64,000 bases of DNA from assembly GCA_947493495.1 (NCBI GenBank), contig CANLRN010000012.1:1-64000 (forward strand), in the 5' to 3' direction. This DNA is from an uncultured Aquimarina sp. (GTDB lineage: Bacteria; Bacteroidota; Bacteroidia; Flavobacteriales; Flavobacteriaceae). Made by a program: the position numbers and the translations under genes. Below are positions 284-8,586 of this stretch, piece after piece. A model generated the notes under the pieces. That model saw nothing but the letters and a program-made list of their open reading frames with translations, did not search any database and was not told where the DNA came from. Numbering within the stretch: position 1 is the first letter of the stretch; each line of letters starts with the position of its first letter.

Positions 284-478
284 GGTAACGTTAAATATAT
301 GGCATTTAGGGCAGAAGATAAACAAGTAGTTTCGATTAAACACTAAGCCAAACTTTTGCATTTTGATTTATCTTTTTCATTTTAAAGCCAAATCAAAAGA
401 TTTGGCGATACAGCAAATAAACACAGCCTTTTCGAACCAACTTAAACCGCCCTATTTGCTATATATAGTGTTGTGATT
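284..478 (-). repeat. attC-like recombination site 1 (about 195 bp)
   Basis: Outer arms AACGTTAAATATATGGCATTTAGGGCAG (from 287) and CCGCCCTATTTGCTATATATAGTGTT (up to 472) are imperfect inverted repeats; inner AGCCAAA...TTTGGCG stem; right core GTTGTGATT at 470-478. Confidence 0.8.
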
Positions 479-486
479 TCGTTATT

Positions 487-948
487 TTATTCAGGAATGG
501 CTTCTTTTTTCCAATCCTCGTGTAAAACATAAGAATCCCATTTCAATTCAGCTCCTTGATATTCAAAAGTCCAATTAATCCAACAAGGAATATTTTCATA
601 ATTATAGAATCCGCTTATTTTAACTTTTTTCTCAACATCATTTATTTCATTATCAAGAATAACATCCCAATTTTGAGTAATATTATCAGCAAATGGTAAT
701 TGAATAGAAGCTTTGTTTTCAAATCCGACAGAACCTTTGAATTCCACTTCAAATAGTTCAGAATTATAACCACTAATTTCAAGAATTGATTTTCCGATGA
801 CAATTCCATCTTTAATATTCATCTCTTTATAATCGGATAGAAAAGCCCAGTCAAATTCGATTTTCAGATTATTATCTACTTTGGTTATTTTTTCTAAGTG
901 AGAGTCGTGTAATCTTAATCGGCTTATATTTGAGTTTATTTTTTCCAT
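487..948 (-). CDS. cassette 1: hypothetical protein, 153 aa
   Basis: ORF track; flanked by complementary cores GTTGTGATT (470-478) and AATCACAAC (961-969). Confidence 0.8.
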   Translation of the reverse strand: MEKINSNISRLRLHDSHLEKITKVDNNLKIEFDWAFLSDYKEMNIKDGIVIGKSILEISGYNSELFEVEFKGSVGFENKASIQLPFADNITQNWDVILDNEINDVEKKVKISGFYNYENIPCWINWTFEYQGAELKWDSYVLHEDWKKEAIPE

Positions 949-960
949 TTTTGGTTAATG

Positions 961-1154
961 AATCACAACGTTAAATGTAAACGGCTGTGCGTGTTAAAAG
1001 AAACTGTCTTTCGGAATTGGCACAAGGCGTTACACTTTTAGTATTTTTAAATTATCAGTTAAAATAATAAAATTTGTGACGCCGACCTCACAAATACAAA
1101 ACTGTCTTTGCTCAAAACACTTAAAAAGCATTGCGTTTACATAGTGTTGTACGC
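961..1154 (-). repeat. attC-like recombination site 2 (about 194 bp)
   Basis: AATCACAACGTTAAATGTAAACG... pairs with ...GCGTTTACATAGTGTTGTACGC; stem ATGTAAACG/CGTTTACAT differs from site 1, but the AAC/GTT ends are kept. Confidence 0.78.
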
Positions 1155-1159
1155 TGGCT

Positions 1160-1611
1160 TTATTTTTTTGGGCTGTTTACGGTTTCTAATACTTTTTTCA
1201 TTTCTAAATCCAATTCATTCATTACAATTTCTTTATTCAATTCAGTTGAGCAGTCAGATTTAATACGGCAAAATATTCTATTATTTTCGTTATAGAAATC
1301 AAATTCTAAATACTCATTTTTTGGATCTGTTTTGTAGAGTACTAATTCCGTATAAATTAGATTTTCTGAATAATTAATTACTAAGGTATAAATTCCTTGA
1401 TTCTTTGGAAAATTGTCTTTTATAATTTCATTTTCTCGAAATAAGTCATAAAAAGTAATATTCCAACCAAAACCTTCTACGAGCTTTATTGTCAGTTTTT
1501 CTGTATCAATATTTTGGTCAGCAATAATGTTTATCATATCACTATTAAATTGATTTTTTGTTTGAGCGATCAAGTTAAAAGTAAAAAATAAAGTTAAAAT
1601 TATTAGTTTCA
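1160..1611 (-). CDS. cassette 2: hypothetical secreted protein
   Basis: ORF 1160..1687 in track, but the first part lies in attC site 3; likely start is the MKLIILTLFFTFNLIAQ signal peptide near 1611. Confidence 0.75.
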
Positions 1612-1623
1612 TTTTTTTTGCTT

Positions 1624-1826
1624 GCGTACAACGGACTTGTGTATGGAACGTAGCGTGCAAAAATGTGCTAAGTTTTCGAATTAACACAGAGCCGAATTTT
1701 TATATTTTGTTTTTAATTTTTCTCTTTTTAAAAAGCCAAATTAAAAATTTGGCGGACTTTCTAAATATACACAAACCTTTCGGTTAAGCACTTATTAGCT
1801 ATGTTTTATACACCGTGTTAGGTGCA
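1624..1826 (-). repeat. attC-like recombination site 3 (about 203 bp)
   Basis: GCGTACAACGGACTTGTGTATGGAACGTAGC pairs with GCTATGTTTTATACACCGTGTTAGGTGCA; inner AAGCCAAATTAAAAATTTGGCGG stem. Confidence 0.8.
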
Positions 1827-1829
1827 GTC

Positions 1830-2597
1830 TTATTCAGTGCCCTGACTTCCGTATCCTTTTAATGCAATATGTACAGATGTAGATGGATATTTTTTGCTTT
1901 TCAGTTGCTCAACAGCATCTTTTCTGGTAAGACCATATTTATTAGAAATGTAATGAAAGTGTGCTTGTCCACCTTTCCAGCTTTCTTTTCCAGCAATGCT
2001 ATTAAATGTCAGAAAGAAACAATGCCATTCGTCATTTTTATCTAAAATTTTAGAGACAATCACTTTTCTAGACTCCACGACATTTTTGAGTTGTCCATCT
2101 GTCATTGAGGTTTCTCCAACTTTATCAACTCCATCTTCTTTTAAGTGAATCAGAGTAGGTAAATCACTTTCGTCGATTCCTTTTCTATGATTTTCTCCTG
2201 TATATTCACTCAATGTAAATCCATATTCTTCATATGCTAAAAATATAAATGCCATTAACTGTTCAACTGTCAGTGTTTGTCTCTTTAATAATTTTTCCTG
2301 TTCGTTTTTGGATTCCGCTGTTAGAAGCTTTATGAAATTTGGAGGTATTTCCGTTTTGCGAATTGAGTTGTACCAATCTTCGTGTTTTTTACTAGCTCTT
2401 TTGTAAAGGTATTCGTCAAAGTAAGAAATAGGAACAGGTGGATTATTCATTATTAAAATATCCCTATCCATTGCCATCATAGAGGCAATTCTAGTTTTTT
2501 TGTAATATTCTATTGGGTTTACGAATTCAAAATCTTCATTCCGAATGATTCTAGTAAACCCTGTTCCGTTATCATCCGGTACTTTGCTTATTTTCAT
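1830..2597 (-). CDS. cassette 3: hypothetical protein (about 255 aa)
   Basis: ORF 1830..2621 in track begins at a GTG inside the core site; ATG at MKISKVPDD near 2597 is more likely. Cores GTTAGGTGCA (1817-1826) and TGCACCTAAC (2617-2626). Confidence 0.75.
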   Translation of the reverse strand: MKISKVPDDNGTGFTRIIRNEDFEFVNPIEYYKKTRIASMMAMDRDILIMNNPPVPISYFDEYLYKRASKKHEDWYNSIRKTEIPPNFIKLLTAESKNEQEKLLKRQTLTVEQLMAFIFLAYEEYGFTLSEYTGENHRKGIDESDLPTLIHLKEDGVDKVGETSMTDGQLKNVVESRKVIVSKILDKNDEWHCFFLTFNSIAGKESWKGGQAHFHYISNKYGLTRKDAVEQLKSKKYPSTSVHIALKGYGSQGTE

Positions 2598-2616
2598 CAG
2601 ATTGGTTTTTCCAGAT

Positions 2617-2817
2617 TGCACCTAACGTTAAGTATAAGAAATCGTAGGGCAGGTGATAAGCACTATCGTTTCGGTTTATTACTTAGCTAAATATAAATAT
2701 TTTGCTTTTATCTTTTCTACTATAAACGCCAAATTTTATATTTAGCGGACTTTGTAAATATTCACAGACGTTTCGGCAAGCAGAAATGCCCTATGTTTTT
2801 TATACACTGTTGTGCGT
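2617..2817 (-). repeat. attC-like recombination site 4 (about 201 bp)
   Basis: TGCACCTAACGTTAAGTATAAGAAATCGTAGGGCA pairs with TGCCCTATGTTTTTTATACACTGTTGTGCGT; inner TTAGCTAAATATAAA...TTTATATTTAGCGG stem. Confidence 0.8.
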
Positions 2818-2820
2818 TCG

Positions 2821-3636
2821 TTATTTTTTTAATTCGCTTATGGCTCCTTCTAAAGCCAAAACCCAACCATTGGCAATATCATCATTGTCTTTTTTTGCCA
2901 TTTCCAAATTCTTAATTAATAATGGTAAAAAGTCTTTATCATCAAGCGTTAGGATTGCTTCAAATAAAAGAGTACCATAATCTCCATTTTCCAATTCTGA
3001 CTTAATAACACCTTTTATTTTCTCGTCTTTTCTGTTTGCTAAACCGACAATTGCTTCTGATTTCGTTTCAAAGTCAGTATCGCCAGTTCTTTTCCATAGA
3101 GCATTTCTTATTTCTATATTATCAGACTCTATTAGAGTTCCAATCCCAAAAGTTGCCCAATTCCTTATTGTTGATGTTTTATGTTCAGTAAACTCGATTA
3201 AAGTGTTAATGGCGTCTGAATTTTCTAATCCTGAAAGAGCAGAAATTAATGCGTGTTTGATATCAGTATTTTTTATAGTTTTAAATTCAACTAATTTAGA
3301 AATCTGTTTTTCACTTAATTCATCATTATTATGTCCTATTCCGTGAAAAATTGATTTAAGCACATTGTCCGATTGTTCTTTTTCAAGAAGTTCAAAATGT
3401 AATTCAACGGTTTGTTTTTTATTATATCTTGGGTCAAAACCTAATTGTTGTAGTACATCAAGTCCAATAATTTTTTGTTTATCAAAATCTGATTTAGCAA
3501 ACTCATATGCTTTTTCAAAAACTTCTTGATTTGGTCTCCTTCTTAATTCAGAGATATTGTCCCAATATGTTTTATGAGTCTTATTATTCAGTAGACGATT
3601 AAATATTTTTTCAGATGTCCAATTCTTTCGTCTCAT
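2821..3636 (-). CDS. cassette 4: HEAT-repeat-like protein, 271 aa
   Basis: ORF track; alternating helical repeats (e.g. ALISALSGLENSDAINTLIEFTEHKTSTIRNWATFGIGTL). Cores GTTGTGCGT (2809-2817) and ACGCACAAC (3664-3672). Confidence 0.75.
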   Translation of the reverse strand: MRRKNWTSEKIFNRLLNNKTHKTYWDNISELRRRPNQEVFEKAYEFAKSDFDKQKIIGLDVLQQLGFDPRYNKKQTVELHFELLEKEQSDNVLKSIFHGIGHNNDELSEKQISKLVEFKTIKNTDIKHALISALSGLENSDAINTLIEFTEHKTSTIRNWATFGIGTLIESDNIEIRNALWKRTGDTDFETKSEAIVGLANRKDEKIKGVIKSELENGDYGTLLFEAILTLDDKDFLPLLIKNLEMAKKDNDDIANGWVLALEGAISELKK

Positions 3637-3663
3637 TTTTTGTTTTAGGGGTCTGCTTTAATG

Positions 3664-3864
3664 ACGCACAACGGTCTTGTGTATGGCTCGTTGCGTGCAA
3701 ATTAGCGATTATTTTTCGGTTAGCCACAAGCCAGATTTTTAAATTTTACTATTTATATTTTTCATTGGAAATCGTCAAATATAAAAATTTGGCGACTTTC
3801 CAAATACGCCTTAACTTTGGTTAAGAAACTGAATAGCAATGAGCTATACACGTTGTTGTGCTTA
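3664..3864 (-). repeat. attC-like recombination site 5 (about 201 bp)
   Basis: ACGCACAACGGTCTTGTGTATGGCTCGTTGC pairs with GCAATGAGCTATACACGTTGTTGTGCTTA. Confidence 0.8.
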
Positions 3865-3865
3865 G

Positions 3866-4974
3866 TTATTTTTCCACGATTTTAAATTCAACTCGTCGGT
3901 TTTTATTTCTTCCGTCTTCGGTTTCGTTAGTTGAAATTGGTTTTTCACTTCCATAACCGACAAATGATATTCTGTTTTTGTTTAAACCTAAATTTATAAA
4001 ATAATCAGATACGGATTTTGCTCTCTTTTCTGAAAGAGCTTGGTTAAATTTTGTATCTCCAACATTGTCGGTATGTCCCGAAATAATTATTTTCGTATTT
4101 AGATTTTCGATTAGGAAATTGTAAACAGTATTTATTTCCATTTTCGCATCTTTTGATAGTTCCGAGCTGTTGAAATCGAAGATGACGTTTTGAAATGTGT
4201 AATCTTTGTTCAAGGCTATTTCAATATCATCCTTTTTGGTTTCAATCGCAATTTCTTTAGGTTTATTTTCTTCCCAATTGGCATCTTGTAAACTCACAAG
4301 GTCAATGTAGTAATAAGACATATTGTTTCTATTTTTATTAGAAACAAGCAACTTCTCTGTTTTGGAATTTTTAAGGAAGTTTCCGATTGTTAGGTATTTC
4401 TCGTTGCCTTGAGCAGTAAATTCACTGGATATCAATGTCCAACTGCTTTTGTTGTCGTAGTATCTGTCATTTTCAATCGTATAAATCTTGAAATTACTGA
4501 CATTATTTTTTTTCAACTGCCTTTCGGACATTTCACGAAAGATTGAAGTATTTAATTCGTTTGCGGAAAGTAAGTAGTCAATGTTTTTAATTGCAAAATC
4601 TGAATTTTCAGCGAGACTCACGAAAAACTCGACCTTGTAATTTTCACCTTTTTCCAATTTCTTTGATAATTCCACTTGAACGTATTCTCTGTAATTATCA
4701 TCAGAATACAAATAAAAACCTGCATATTTGTTGCCATCTTTCGCTTGTTGTAATCCGTTGTAGTTGTTTGGAATACCAACTTGACCTTTAGCGCAAGTAT
4801 TGAATAAATCAGTAGTTCCAAAAGTAGGTGAAGTCCAATTTTTTAAATTATGGTCAAAAGCTCCGATAATTTCAGAGCATCTTTTCGTGTTTTCAAAACT
4901 TGGATTTTGTACTAAATTCTGTGAAAAAAGCAGAAACGGAAATAGTAAAAAAAGAATTTTGATGTAGTTCACAA
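3866..4974 (-). CDS. cassette 5: OmpA-family outer membrane protein
   Basis: C-terminal OmpA domain (IIISGHTDNVGDTKFNQALSEKRAKSVSDYFINLGLNKNRISFVGYGSEKPI...NRRVEF). ORF 3866..5032 overruns the core site; likely start is the GTG at MNYIKILFLLFPFLLFSQ. Confidence 0.85.
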
Positions 4975-4989
4975 ATTTTGGTTCATAAT

Positions 4990-5125
4990 TAAGCACAACG
5001 TTTCGGCTAAGAGTAGTTGCGTTGGTTAGCACTTAACTTTGCAAGTAAACACCAAGTTGGAAATTCCGCAGAAATTTCTAAAATAGGTGAGGAAAAGCAA
5101 TTACTTATAGCCATTGTTGTAAGTA
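4990..5125 (-). repeat. attC-like recombination site 6 (short class, about 136 bp)
   Basis: TAAGCACAACGTTTCGGCTAAGAGTAGTTGCG pairs with AGCAATTACTTATAGCCATTGTTGTAAGTA. Confidence 0.78.
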
Positions 5126-5850
5126 GTGTTTTTGTTTTCAACTATTCTTTTTATATCATTCAGATGTGATGCACCATAAACAATTAGAATTTTATCATCC
5201 TTTGGCATAATAACTTTTTGAGCAACAAATTCATTACGCAATTTTAAAATAAAATCTTTATGGAAAACAGAAGATAACTTTTCATCTATTTTCTTGCAAT
5301 TATAAGTAACTTCTTTTAAATCAGATCTGAAATCACAATTAGACAACTTTAATTCTCCATATGTTTTTTCAAATTCTGAAATTAAGTTTATCATTGGGAT
5401 ATCAACTTTTTTGTCTGTATCTATAATATTTAAGTCTTCTCGATTCGGTTGGTTTATAATCTTGTCCTTTCCAACATATTTATATTTTCCTCTTAATTTT
5501 TTATTTATTGTATCAAATCTCTTTGAAGTGATTGATTTTCCGTAAAGTTTTCTAAATTTTCGCTTACTAGTATCATTTTCCAATGAATCAATATTTTCTG
5601 GATTTTTTACAGTTTCGTAATAAATTATAAAATCTTTATTTCTTAGTGAATCAATCTTTTTTTTTACATCCTCGTAAAATGTTTTATCTCCAAAATGAAA
5701 CATTGGTAAAAAGTAGATTTGTTTCTTTCTAAATTCAATTTTTTCCAAAGATGCATTGTCAGGGTAATCTACATCGAATTTTAAGGCACCACAAGAAATT
5801 AAAATTGAATTAATAAAAATTAATAAAGTATTTCGATAAAAAGTGTTCAT
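5101..5850 (-). CDS. cassette 6: lipoprotein-like, possible TraB/PrgY-like protein
   Basis: ORF track; lipobox-like ISCGAL; C-terminal ILIVYGASHLNDI resembles TraB-family motif. Coding end runs into the core site. Confidence 0.65.
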   Translation of the reverse strand: MNTFYRNTLLIFINSILISCGALKFDVDYPDNASLEKIEFRKKQIYFLPMFHFGDKTFYEDVKKKIDSLRNKDFIIYYETVKNPENIDSLENDTSKRKFRKLYGKSITSKRFDTINKKLRGKYKYVGKDKIINQPNREDLNIIDTDKKVDIPMINLISEFEKTYGELKLSNCDFRSDLKEVTYNCKKIDEKLSSVFHKDFILKLRNEFVAQKVIMPKDDKILIVYGASHLNDIKRIVENKNTTYNNGYK

Positions 5851-5861
5851 TCGGTTTACAT

Positions 5862-5998
5862 TACTTACAACGGTTTCGGCTATGAACTGTTGCGTGGGTT
5901 AGCACGGACTTTTGCAAGTACACGACAAGCTGAAAATTCCGCAGGAATTTTCAGGATAAGCCTGTAATAGCAATTGTTTATAGCCATTGTTACCCAAC
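5862..5998 (-). repeat. attC-like recombination site 7 (short class, about 137 bp)
   Basis: TACTTACAACGGTTTCGGCTATGAACTGTTGC pairs with GCAATTGTTTATAGCCATTGTTACCCAAC; interior similar to site 6. Confidence 0.78.
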
Positions 5999-6574
5999 GT
6001 TTTTATTTCGGTTATATATTTCAGTTTCTTTTCGTTCAAATGCTGGAACTGCAATATCAGTTTCCCAACTTTTACTTATTTCAGAAAACTGTTCTTTTAG
6101 TCTTTCGTTAAATTGAAACCAACCTTCTGTACTTTCTGAAATCTCAAATTGTTTCCCATTTTCCGCTTCTAAAAATAGACGAATTTCATCGGTTGCGAAT
6201 AGGTCAACTTTGTAAGCAGTCAGCTTTTTAATTTCGTCCCATTCAATTTTAGTCGGTTTATCCTCAATCTGCAATTCAAACCCATTTTTGTCATAGGTAA
6301 AAATTCCGTTTGAGTTGTACAATTCCATAAACTCTTCGTCAGTCAATTTTTTGTAATATTCTTTCTGTTTTGGAAGAAATCTACTATTTGGATTGAAATA
6401 TCTCAATAATAAGAGAATCGCTCCAATTCCGAAAAACACAATCGTAACCCAAGTTAATAATTCCGATTTATCCATAATTGTGATTCCGACTATGGAAAAT
6501 CCAGAACATAGTATTCCTGCAAATAAGTCACTTGTTTTTTTATTCAATTCAATATGTTTCTTGGTTTTTCTCAA
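5990..6574 (-). CDS. cassette 7: hypothetical membrane protein, 194 aa
   Basis: ORF track; TM segments (FAGILCSGFSIVGITIM, WVTIVFFGIGAILLLL); TAA stop lies inside the core GTTACCCAAC. Confidence 0.7.
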   Translation of the reverse strand: MRKTKKHIELNKKTSDLFAGILCSGFSIVGITIMDKSELLTWVTIVFFGIGAILLLLRYFNPNSRFLPKQKEYYKKLTDEEFMELYNSNGIFTYDKNGFELQIEDKPTKIEWDEIKKLTAYKVDLFATDEIRLFLEAENGKQFEISESTEGWFQFNERLKEQFSEISKSWETDIAVPAFERKETEIYNRNKNVG

Positions 6575-6576
6575 AT

Positions 6577-6771
6577 GTTGGGTAACGTTTAGCTATGCGT
6601 AGTGCGGAAGCAAAAAATCACTGGTTTTCGAGCTATCACTTAGCCAAAGTTTATGTTTTGTTTTTATATTTTCTAAAATACTAAATTTAATACTTTGGCG
6701 ACAAACCAAATAAGCACTGAACTTTGAATTAAACCAAAACCCCGCATTATCGCATAGGTGTTGTTAGGTTT
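6577..6771 (-). repeat. attC-like recombination site 8 (about 195 bp)
   Basis: GTTGGGTAACGTTTAGCTATGCGTAGTGCGG pairs with CCCCGCATTATCGCATAGGTGTTGTTAGGTTT; inner TTAGCCAAAGTTT...ATACTTTGGCG stem. Confidence 0.8.
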
Positions 6772-7393
6772 TCGTTTTTTTCTCTCCGATCCAGTTTGTA
6801 TTCAATTCAATTATCTGATTTTTATCATTCAGTTTGAATATTCGACCCAGCTTGAATTTCTTGGGGTCATCACATAATGCTTTAAGATCATTTCTTTCAG
6901 GATTATAAATTCCAAATTCTAAATAATTGAACCTAGCCACAGTTAAATCAGCTACATCATTAGGTCCAATTCCATATTTATCCTCAACATTGTTATCAGA
7001 ACCATCATCTTCCCACCAGCAAACCTTACAGATGTCGAAGTCATCTCTTTTCTCTAAAGTTTTAAAACCGCAACAAGGGCAAGATTCTAAATCGACCGGA
7101 ACTCCACTCGTTATTTCAATTCCAGTTTGTTGAGATAAAAACTCATTTATAATCCCTTTAAAGTCATCTCTTAATTTGAACCTCAGTATTTCATCATATT
7201 TATGGTCATTAAAACTATTTAGTAATTCTTCACTTTCGAATTCTTTCTGAATTTCTTGAGGTAAAGCTGTCCATCCATTTGTATCAGACCAGTTTCCTAA
7301 TAGTAATGAAGTTAATGCCTCCTCTCGTTCATTTTCAGAATAATTAGAGATTACCTTGCTTATATATTTTTCGAGGACTTCTTTTCTATCCAT
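6764..7393 (-). CDS. cassette 8: CPCC-family cysteine-rich protein
   Basis: Motif ESCPCCGFKTLEKRDDFDICKVCWWEDDGSDN typical of CPCC cysteine-rich proteins; stop codon in core GTTAGGTTT (6763-6771); partner core AAACCTAAC at 7405-7413. Confidence 0.82.
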   Translation of the reverse strand: MDRKEVLEKYISKVISNYSENEREEALTSLLLGNWSDTNGWTALPQEIQKEFESEELLNSFNDHKYDEILRFKLRDDFKGIINEFLSQQTGIEITSGVPVDLESCPCCGFKTLEKRDDFDICKVCWWEDDGSDNNVEDKYGIGPNDVADLTVARFNYLEFGIYNPERNDLKALCDDPKKFKLGRIFKLNDKNQIIELNTNWIGEKKTKT

Positions 7394-7404
7394 TTTTTTT
7401 AATG

Positions 7405-7447
7405 AAACCTAACAATAGAATATAGGATATATGTCCTATATATTCCA
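7405..7447 (-). promoter_or_regulatory. candidate attI-like primary recombination site next to recombinase gene
   Basis: Core AAACCTAAC (7405-7413) followed by dyad GAATATAGGA-TATATG-TCCTATATATTC, between cassette 8 and the recombinase stop codon. Confidence 0.45.
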
Positions 7448-7458
7448 TGTATGTTTAT

Positions 7459-8586
7459 TTACAAATCTAGTGGATTTTTAATTAACTTAAAATTATGTAC
7501 TGCAACTTGGGTATATATTTCTGTTGTTTTACTACTACTATGTCCCAATAAGGCCTGGATATACCTTAAATCTGTACCGTTCTCTAATAAATGAGTTGCA
7601 AACGAATGCCTAAGTATATGCGGTGTGACTCTTCTTTTGATATTTGCTTTTGTTGCAGCTCTGGAAACAATTGCACCTACACTTTTATCTGAGTATTTTC
7701 TACCATCGGGAGACTCGAAGAGATATTCTTTAGGCTTCCATTGACTATAGTATATTCTTAATTCTTTTAATACCGTTTCTGAGAGTAGTGAATACCGATC
7801 TCTATTATTTTTAGCGTTTCTAATGAAGATCAGCATTCGTTTACTATCGATATCTTCAATTTTTAAATTCAATACTTCACTTCTACGTAATCCAGCAGAA
7901 TACAATAACCCTATAATACAACGATGTTTGATATTGTTGGTACTTTCCATCATCATAATAATTTCTTCTTTTGATAATACTTTAGGAAGTTTCTGTTCTT
8001 TTCTAGGGCGTTCTATACTATAAAACCTGTTAGGCATACCCATCACTACTTCATAATAGAACTTAATACTATTAATGGCTTGGTTGATATAACTGTTAGA
8101 TTTGTTTTGGTGAATCAGATATTGTAAATAGCTTCTTATTTCTTGCTCAGACAGTGCTATAATATCCTTATCAGGATAATGATTAATAAATTTTTCAAAT
8201 TGTGATATATAGATTTTACAGGTATTTAAGGCATATCGTTTCAGTTCTAATTTTGCCAGATATACTTCTGGAACATATCGATACGAACTCTTGTTAATTC
8301 TGTTACGGTACCAATTAATATCTACAGGTTGATTCTCACGTATGTTTTTTTCTTTAAAAAAAGAGTTTCCATTTACCCAGGCTACTCCTCTAAATTTTTC
8401 AAAAATCTGATTTAGATTTTCTTTGTTGTTTACAACATATACCATTGAATATTCCTTGCTCCACCGAGGTTTATGAAGTTCCTTGATCAACGCCTGAATT
8501 ACTTTATCAGGATGAAATTGTATTCCGATCATTTTTTGATGATGAATCAACAGATGCTTTAAAGTGATATGCTTTGTAAAATTCAT
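7459..8586 (-). CDS. tyrosine site-specific recombinase (XerC/D/IntI-like, no evident IntI-specific insertion)
   Basis: Catalytic motifs LLYSAGLRRSEVLNLKIEDID, TPHILRHSFATHLLENGTDLRYIQALLGHSSSKTTEIYTQV; C-terminal IKNPLD; N-terminal extension of about 95 aa. Confidence 0.93.
   Translation of the reverse strand: MNFTKHITLKHLLIHHQKMIGIQFHPDKVIQALIKELHKPRWSKEYSMVYVVNNKENLNQIFEKFRGVAWVNGNSFFKEKNIRENQPVDINWYRNRINKSSYRYVPEVYLAKLELKRYALNTCKIYISQFEKFINHYPDKDIIALSEQEIRSYLQYLIHQNKSNSYINQAINSIKFYYEVVMGMPNRFYSIERPRKEQKLPKVLSKEEIIMMMESTNNIKHRCIIGLLYSAGLRRSEVLNLKIEDIDSKRMLIFIRNAKNNRDRYSLLSETVLKELRIYYSQWKPKEYLFESPDGRKYSDKSVGAIVSRAATKANIKRRVTPHILRHSFATHLLENGTDLRYIQALLGHSSSKTTEIYTQVAVHNFKLIKNPLDL

Follow-up and report, generated by a model that had tools for sequence, protein, structure and literature searches.

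Chromosomal integrons, such as the Vibrio superintegron and the arrays found at four of the canonical integrase loci that we fetched from Bacteroidota (L229, L232, L233, and L234), consist of tandem one-gene cassettes with an attI site beside the integrase gene. Each gene is followed by an attC hairpin with the layout R-spacer-L, the crossover lies at G|TT, and the cores of a cassette are complementary across its gene. The I2 helix of the integrase is necessary for cassette capture by known IntIs, according to a statement in PMC7790495 that cites Messier and Roy 2001, and it is described as not found in other proteins (PMC7790495). Integron surveys have chosen integrases by the I2 domain (PMC2426708, PMC9668308), and this selection would account for the single complete integron of Bacteroidetes, in Salinibacter, reported with IntegronFinder 2.0 (PMC9024848). 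We found no prior description of the system analyzed here in the open-access literature. The other related recombinases, archaeal XerA and bacterial XerC-XerD, act on dif in chromosome resolution.

In this study, we analyzed a 64,000-nt stretch from an uncultured Aquimarina sp. (the window; contig CANLRN010000012.1). We interpret it, with a probability of about 0.8, as the integrase-proximal end of an integron-type array, in which an adjacent recombinase lacking I2 would join and move circular cassettes through bottom-strand attC hairpins.

Organization of the array

All features are encoded on the minus strand, in the order recombinase gene (8586-7459), 45 nt, the core GTTAGGTTT, and then gene plus attC eight times. 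The first gene encodes a tyrosine recombinase of 375 aa. The 45-nt segment (7414-7458) is the presumed attI and contains a palindrome (7420-7441) whose center lies 17 nt before G|TT; the tandem cassettes that follow are each composed of a TT-core, a gene, an attC hairpin, and G. Cassette 1 (6586-7412) carries the gene for a Cys_rich_CPCC-domain protein (6764-7393), cassette 4 (3672-4998) that for an OmpA-family (OmpA/Pal-like) protein (3866 to about 4970), and cassette 5 (2626-3671) that for a HEAT-repeat protein (2821-3636). Hypothetical proteins are encoded in cassettes 2 (5871-6585; gene 5990-6574), 3 (4999-5870; gene 5101-5850), 6 (1632-2625; gene 1830-2621), 7 (969-1631; gene 1160 to about 1612), and 8 (289-968; gene 487-948). 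The beginning of a ninth cassette (1-288), with the core GTTACCATT at 289-281, is cut by the contig end. A ninth attC site belongs to cassette 8 and spans 281-478; our site model R1 placed it at 283-476. The array therefore extends past the start of the contig by one or more additional cassettes. The sites at the other junctions are located at 6577-6771 (cassettes 1/2, spacer 176 nt), 5862-5998 (2/3, 117 nt), 4990-5125 (3/4, 116 nt), 3664-3864 (4/5, 182 nt), 2617-2817 (5/6, 182 nt), 1624-1826 (6/7, 184 nt), and 961-1154 (7/8, 176 nt). Small one-gene cassettes in tandem, mostly in one orientation, thus number eight in the window and up to 12 elsewhere. Apart from the OmpA/Pal-like product of 3866-5032 and the HEAT-repeat protein, most cassette products belong to no recognized family. 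An Rfam search of the window returned a single tRNA and nothing else, and PADLOC detected no convincing defense gene among its cassettes.

Core pairs and cassette boundaries

The original prediction was that each cassette carries a private, exactly complementary core at its two ends. Measured base by base, all eight pairs are present: 470/961 (9 nt), 1146/1624 (9 nt), 1817/2617 (10 nt), 2809/3664 (9 nt), 3855/4990 (10 nt), 5116/5862 (10 nt), 5989/6577 (10 nt), and 6763/7405 (9 nt). Complementarity ends directly outside GTT/AAC, except in the last pair, which has 2 nt more. Left and right cores of different cassettes in the window match over 3-7 nt only, and each pair is therefore private to its own cassette. 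Chains of cross-gene pairs reached eight members in the window and at most two in 20 shuffles. The property is general, having been detected in 260 cassettes at 46 loci with a requirement of at least 8 nt; some three-member chains in this count are spurious (GTTT cores) and were omitted from later counts. The complementarity was exactly 10 nt long in 132 of the 260 cassettes and longer in only 2, while the two halves of one attC site, as they stand in the array, share 3-4 nt in 160 of 204 cases.

Homologous cassettes in other species either keep their full-length cores or have changed both ends together. The pair GTTGTAGCAC/GTGCTACAAC is retained end to end at 72% cassette identity between different neighbors, and two related cassettes with 81% identity have GTTATGCGCC/GGCGCATAAC and GTTATGCACA/AGTGCATAAC, respectively. 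This answers in favor of the original prediction the question it had raised itself, namely whether the cores at the two ends vary independently. Its reading of the complementarity as a signature of circular cassettes inserted whole is likewise supported, since the cores travel with the gene and whole units recur, and the proposed crossover is borne out by recurring units that are cut exactly at G|TT. The same observations bear on the idea that the intergenic repeats are MITE- or REP-like insertions between unrelated genes, with the cores as target-site effects. Such repeats would indeed be numerous and scattered through genomes, as these are, but the complementarity spans the gene rather than the repeat, gene and repeat are copied as one unit, and synteny is lost at G|TT on either side. 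We regard this explanation as highly improbable.

Canonical integron arrays of the same phylum, which lie 5' of intI, also have private cores (7-15 nt) and the core split at G|TT with its own R'' complementary across the gene. Private pairing is therefore a general integron property: the core pairs and whole insertion of the original prediction hold, but they are not new as a principle. That prediction did not address the non-canonical nature of the neighboring integrase, and what is new here is the machinery, an I2-less recombinase together with its sites. The motif GTTRRRY was dropped as a discriminator; it fits only 9% of the new cores but also only 20% of the canonical control cores.

The recombinase

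The protein encoded at 7459-8586 has an N-terminal domain of approximately 100 aa followed by a Xer-like core, without the I2 insertion specific to IntI. The catalytic residues R234, K259, H323, R326, H349, and Y358 are conserved across its family. The integron-integrase profile TIGR02249 gave 185.9 bits, below its cut-off of 265, and matched only at positions 8-178 and 239-313, leaving 179-238 unmatched. The spacing between the catalytic Lys and His is 64-65 aa in 31 relatives, compared with 106 aa in 12 canonical IntIs and 70-72 aa in two Xer-like proteins. The best profile by score was NF040815 (219.4 bits, just below the cut-off of 220), the closest solved structures were 4a8e and 5hxy, and the scores for the XerC and XerD profiles were under their cut-offs. 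The recombinase thus shares with archaeal XerA and bacterial XerC-XerD its closest profile, its closest structures, and the lack of an I2 insertion, but differs in its extra N-terminal domain and in adjoining a cassette array with many structured hairpin sites instead of a single dif site. Other Xer-like recombinases are also encoded in the same genome.

For the N-terminal domain, structure prediction gave a beta-beta-alpha-beta-beta-alpha fold of good confidence, with blocks in which pLDDT is near 90. It has weak matches to HARP, the XPB damage-recognition domain, and MutS, which form one group of structure-specific DNA-binding domains. Foldseek returned E-values above 0.05 (probability 0.75 for XPB and 0.41 for SMARCAL1 HARP), and Pfam HARP matched 2 of 29 members (E 0.0023). 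A HARP/XPB/MutS-like identity of the modeled domain is accordingly proposed as a lead only. In our phylogeny, IntI sits on a long branch (2.42) inside the family with weak support, and we claim the recombinase neither as an ancestor of IntI nor as an independent lineage.

attC sites and strand preference

An attC predicted to form a hairpin from its R and L stems follows each cassette gene. Strong covariation in 36 aligned sites from the shorter class supports an outer hairpin, in which 95.5% of the cells are paired, compared with 23-42% when the alignment is slid. Double changes in the stem number 69, compared with 18.7 in shuffles, and one-sided changes are very few. We take the scarcity of G-U-type intermediates in these sequences to point to DNA, not RNA, as the folded form. 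When the left core of the cassette itself is restored at R', the mean R''/R' pairing probability (10 bp) is 0.91, compared with 0.17 in the array configuration, a rise that use of the site in circular form would predict. The spacers at all loci fall into length classes of about 118, 157, and 176-184 nt, and every class has a distinctive inner sequence.

The sites differ in sequence from those of canonical integrons, and AxC or G-T positions take the place of the one-sided extrahelical bases in the stem. AxC mismatches occur in 122 of 129 new sites and in 2 of 20 canonical sites, whereas the left-side one-sided bulges that represent the known extrahelical bases are present in all 20 canonical controls. 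The inner AxC pair is invariant in the 36-site alignment. Because AxC on the top strand corresponds to a G-T wobble on the bottom strand, the bottom strand folds better; with G-T allowed, it is the more stable strand in 131 of the 139 new sites (mean energies of -33.9 kcal/mol for the bottom and -30.7 kcal/mol for the top strand), compared with 14 of 20 canonical ones.

The resemblance to Xer proteins and the lack of the single-strand-adapted I2 helix would suit a system in which the same recombinase acts on the same cassettes but recombines attC as double-stranded DNA, without a single-stranded hairpin. The stem arms, however, covary over 110-180 nt, the bottom-strand hairpins are near-perfect and have conserved wobble positions, and R''/R' identity between neighboring double-stranded cores is very low. 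We therefore consider double-stranded exchange unlikely.

attI and signs of array activity

Among 21 sites compared, 18 have the center of the attI palindrome 15.5-18 nt before the core. This conserved spacing, together with junctions that change at the core, suggests from the layout that an attI lies beside the integrase gene. Arenibacter arenosicollis has two fully identical copies of a cassette (654 bp, with a spacer of 119 bp), at attI and in mid-array, and the flanks of the two copies differ exactly outside G|TT. A cassette pair with 97% identity in Lacinutrix shows the same pattern, and whole units recur at non-adjacent positions. Three related genomes have the recombinase and attI in common at 90-94% identity; in one of them the similarity ends precisely at the attI|cassette junction, and the remaining two diverge from each other exactly at a later core. 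These recent whole-unit copies at attI and cassette-exact junctions, as read from the sequences, support activity of the array.

Genes related to those of cassettes 1 and 5 are also present in another Aquimarina genome, G008, at L178 (G008:C22) and L179 (G008:C32), where the cores are decayed and no attC is recognizable. In place of attC, a different repeat starts inside R'' (AA|TAACTAAG...), and both loci contain a further copy of this repeat that has at its end an attI-like palindrome (ATATAGTTACCATGGTAACTATAT), after which comes GTTG. The repeat is possibly an attC-targeting element or an attI-bearing fusion.

Distribution in Bacteroidota

The recombinase family was matched at no fewer than 580 loci in a species-level genome collection and is present in 122 of 397 sampled genomes of the phylum. 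Recombinases of this type followed by such arrays are found repeatedly across Bacteroidota, including Winogradskyella, Lacinutrix, Arenibacter, Seonamhaeicola, and Aequorivita; private-core arrays begin about 40-100 nt past the recombinase stop codon and comprise up to 12 cassettes. Among 53 loci, the contig terminates within 500 nt of the recombinase on the downstream side in 23 cases and on the upstream side in no case, a pattern that assembly breakage at repeats would produce. G000 has a second copy of the recombinase with 80% identity (G000:C57:23149-24267; L002, L038), which has its own attI-like region and GTTGTAGCAC as first core, but the ~6 kb of contig that remain contain no right core to match. 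Locus L135, with a family recombinase and a good array, is in a metagenome bin labelled Rhodobacteraceae; it is probably a mis-binned Bacteroidota contig, or otherwise a transfer.

All integrase-positive genomes have attC-type sites, but most same-genus genomes without the integrase (no match at E ≤ 1e-60) have them too, so that this presence/absence comparison is not decisive. Sites in several genomes without an integrase match indicate that they persist or spread without the integrase, and in complete genomes, attC-type sites are also found far from it. Seven of the same-genus genomes that gave no recombinase match at this threshold (G002, G004, G010, G011, G012, G023, and G024; e.g., L180, L181, and L182) have many attC-type sites at several chromosomal places, resembling CALIN, the attC clusters that lack an integron integrase. 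Integron software that depends on the IntI-specific domain would presumably classify arrays of the window type as CALIN as well, if it found their sites, although a recombinase adjoins them that is missing only the domain by which IntI is recognized.

Canonical IntIs scoring over the cut-off occur in 110 of the 397 genomes, in other classes; none is listed in the family of the window and one in its class. Their presence in the phylum, together with the shared R-spacer-L layout, could suggest that the array is canonical, that its cassettes were inserted by an ordinary IntI located elsewhere in the genome or since lost, and that the neighboring recombinase is a bystander. No match over the IntI cut-off was found in the same genome or in 56 relatives, the arrays abut the I2-less recombinase across many genera, and the sites are of a different type, one that goes with the type of recombinase, with at most one, very weak, R1 match near canonical IntIs. 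This makes an ordinary IntI a very unlikely source.

Discussion

The lack of both the I2 helix and the one-sided extrahelical bases sets the system apart from known integrons, as do the extra N-terminal domain and the position of the array, which lies 3' of the integrase gene and shares its strand rather than running divergently on the 5' side. Since these two defining features, I2 and the extrahelical bases, are missing, we report it as a variant rather than an ordinary member; a system that works like an integron, without I2, is the best reading. We propose that circular cassettes are joined at attI by the neighboring tyrosine recombinase, which would also excise or relocate them through attC x attC exchange at G|TT. 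In this model, the bottom strand of attC would be used as a hairpin in which the two cores of the cassette itself are paired. Based on the calculated folding energies, the choice of strand is probably set by the conserved AxC (top) or G-T wobble (bottom) positions, and recognition may involve the extra N-terminal domain.

A broader proposal, which we put forward tentatively and at less than even odds, is that Bacteroidota have a second, phylum-wide type of integron in which G-T wobbles choose the bottom strand and a HARP/XPB-DRD/MutS-like N-terminal domain replaces I2, either as an ancestral form or as an independent invention. A widespread I2-less cassette system would in itself represent a large overlooked reservoir of mobile genes in a major phylum and a natural test case for the origin of single-stranded hairpin recombination.
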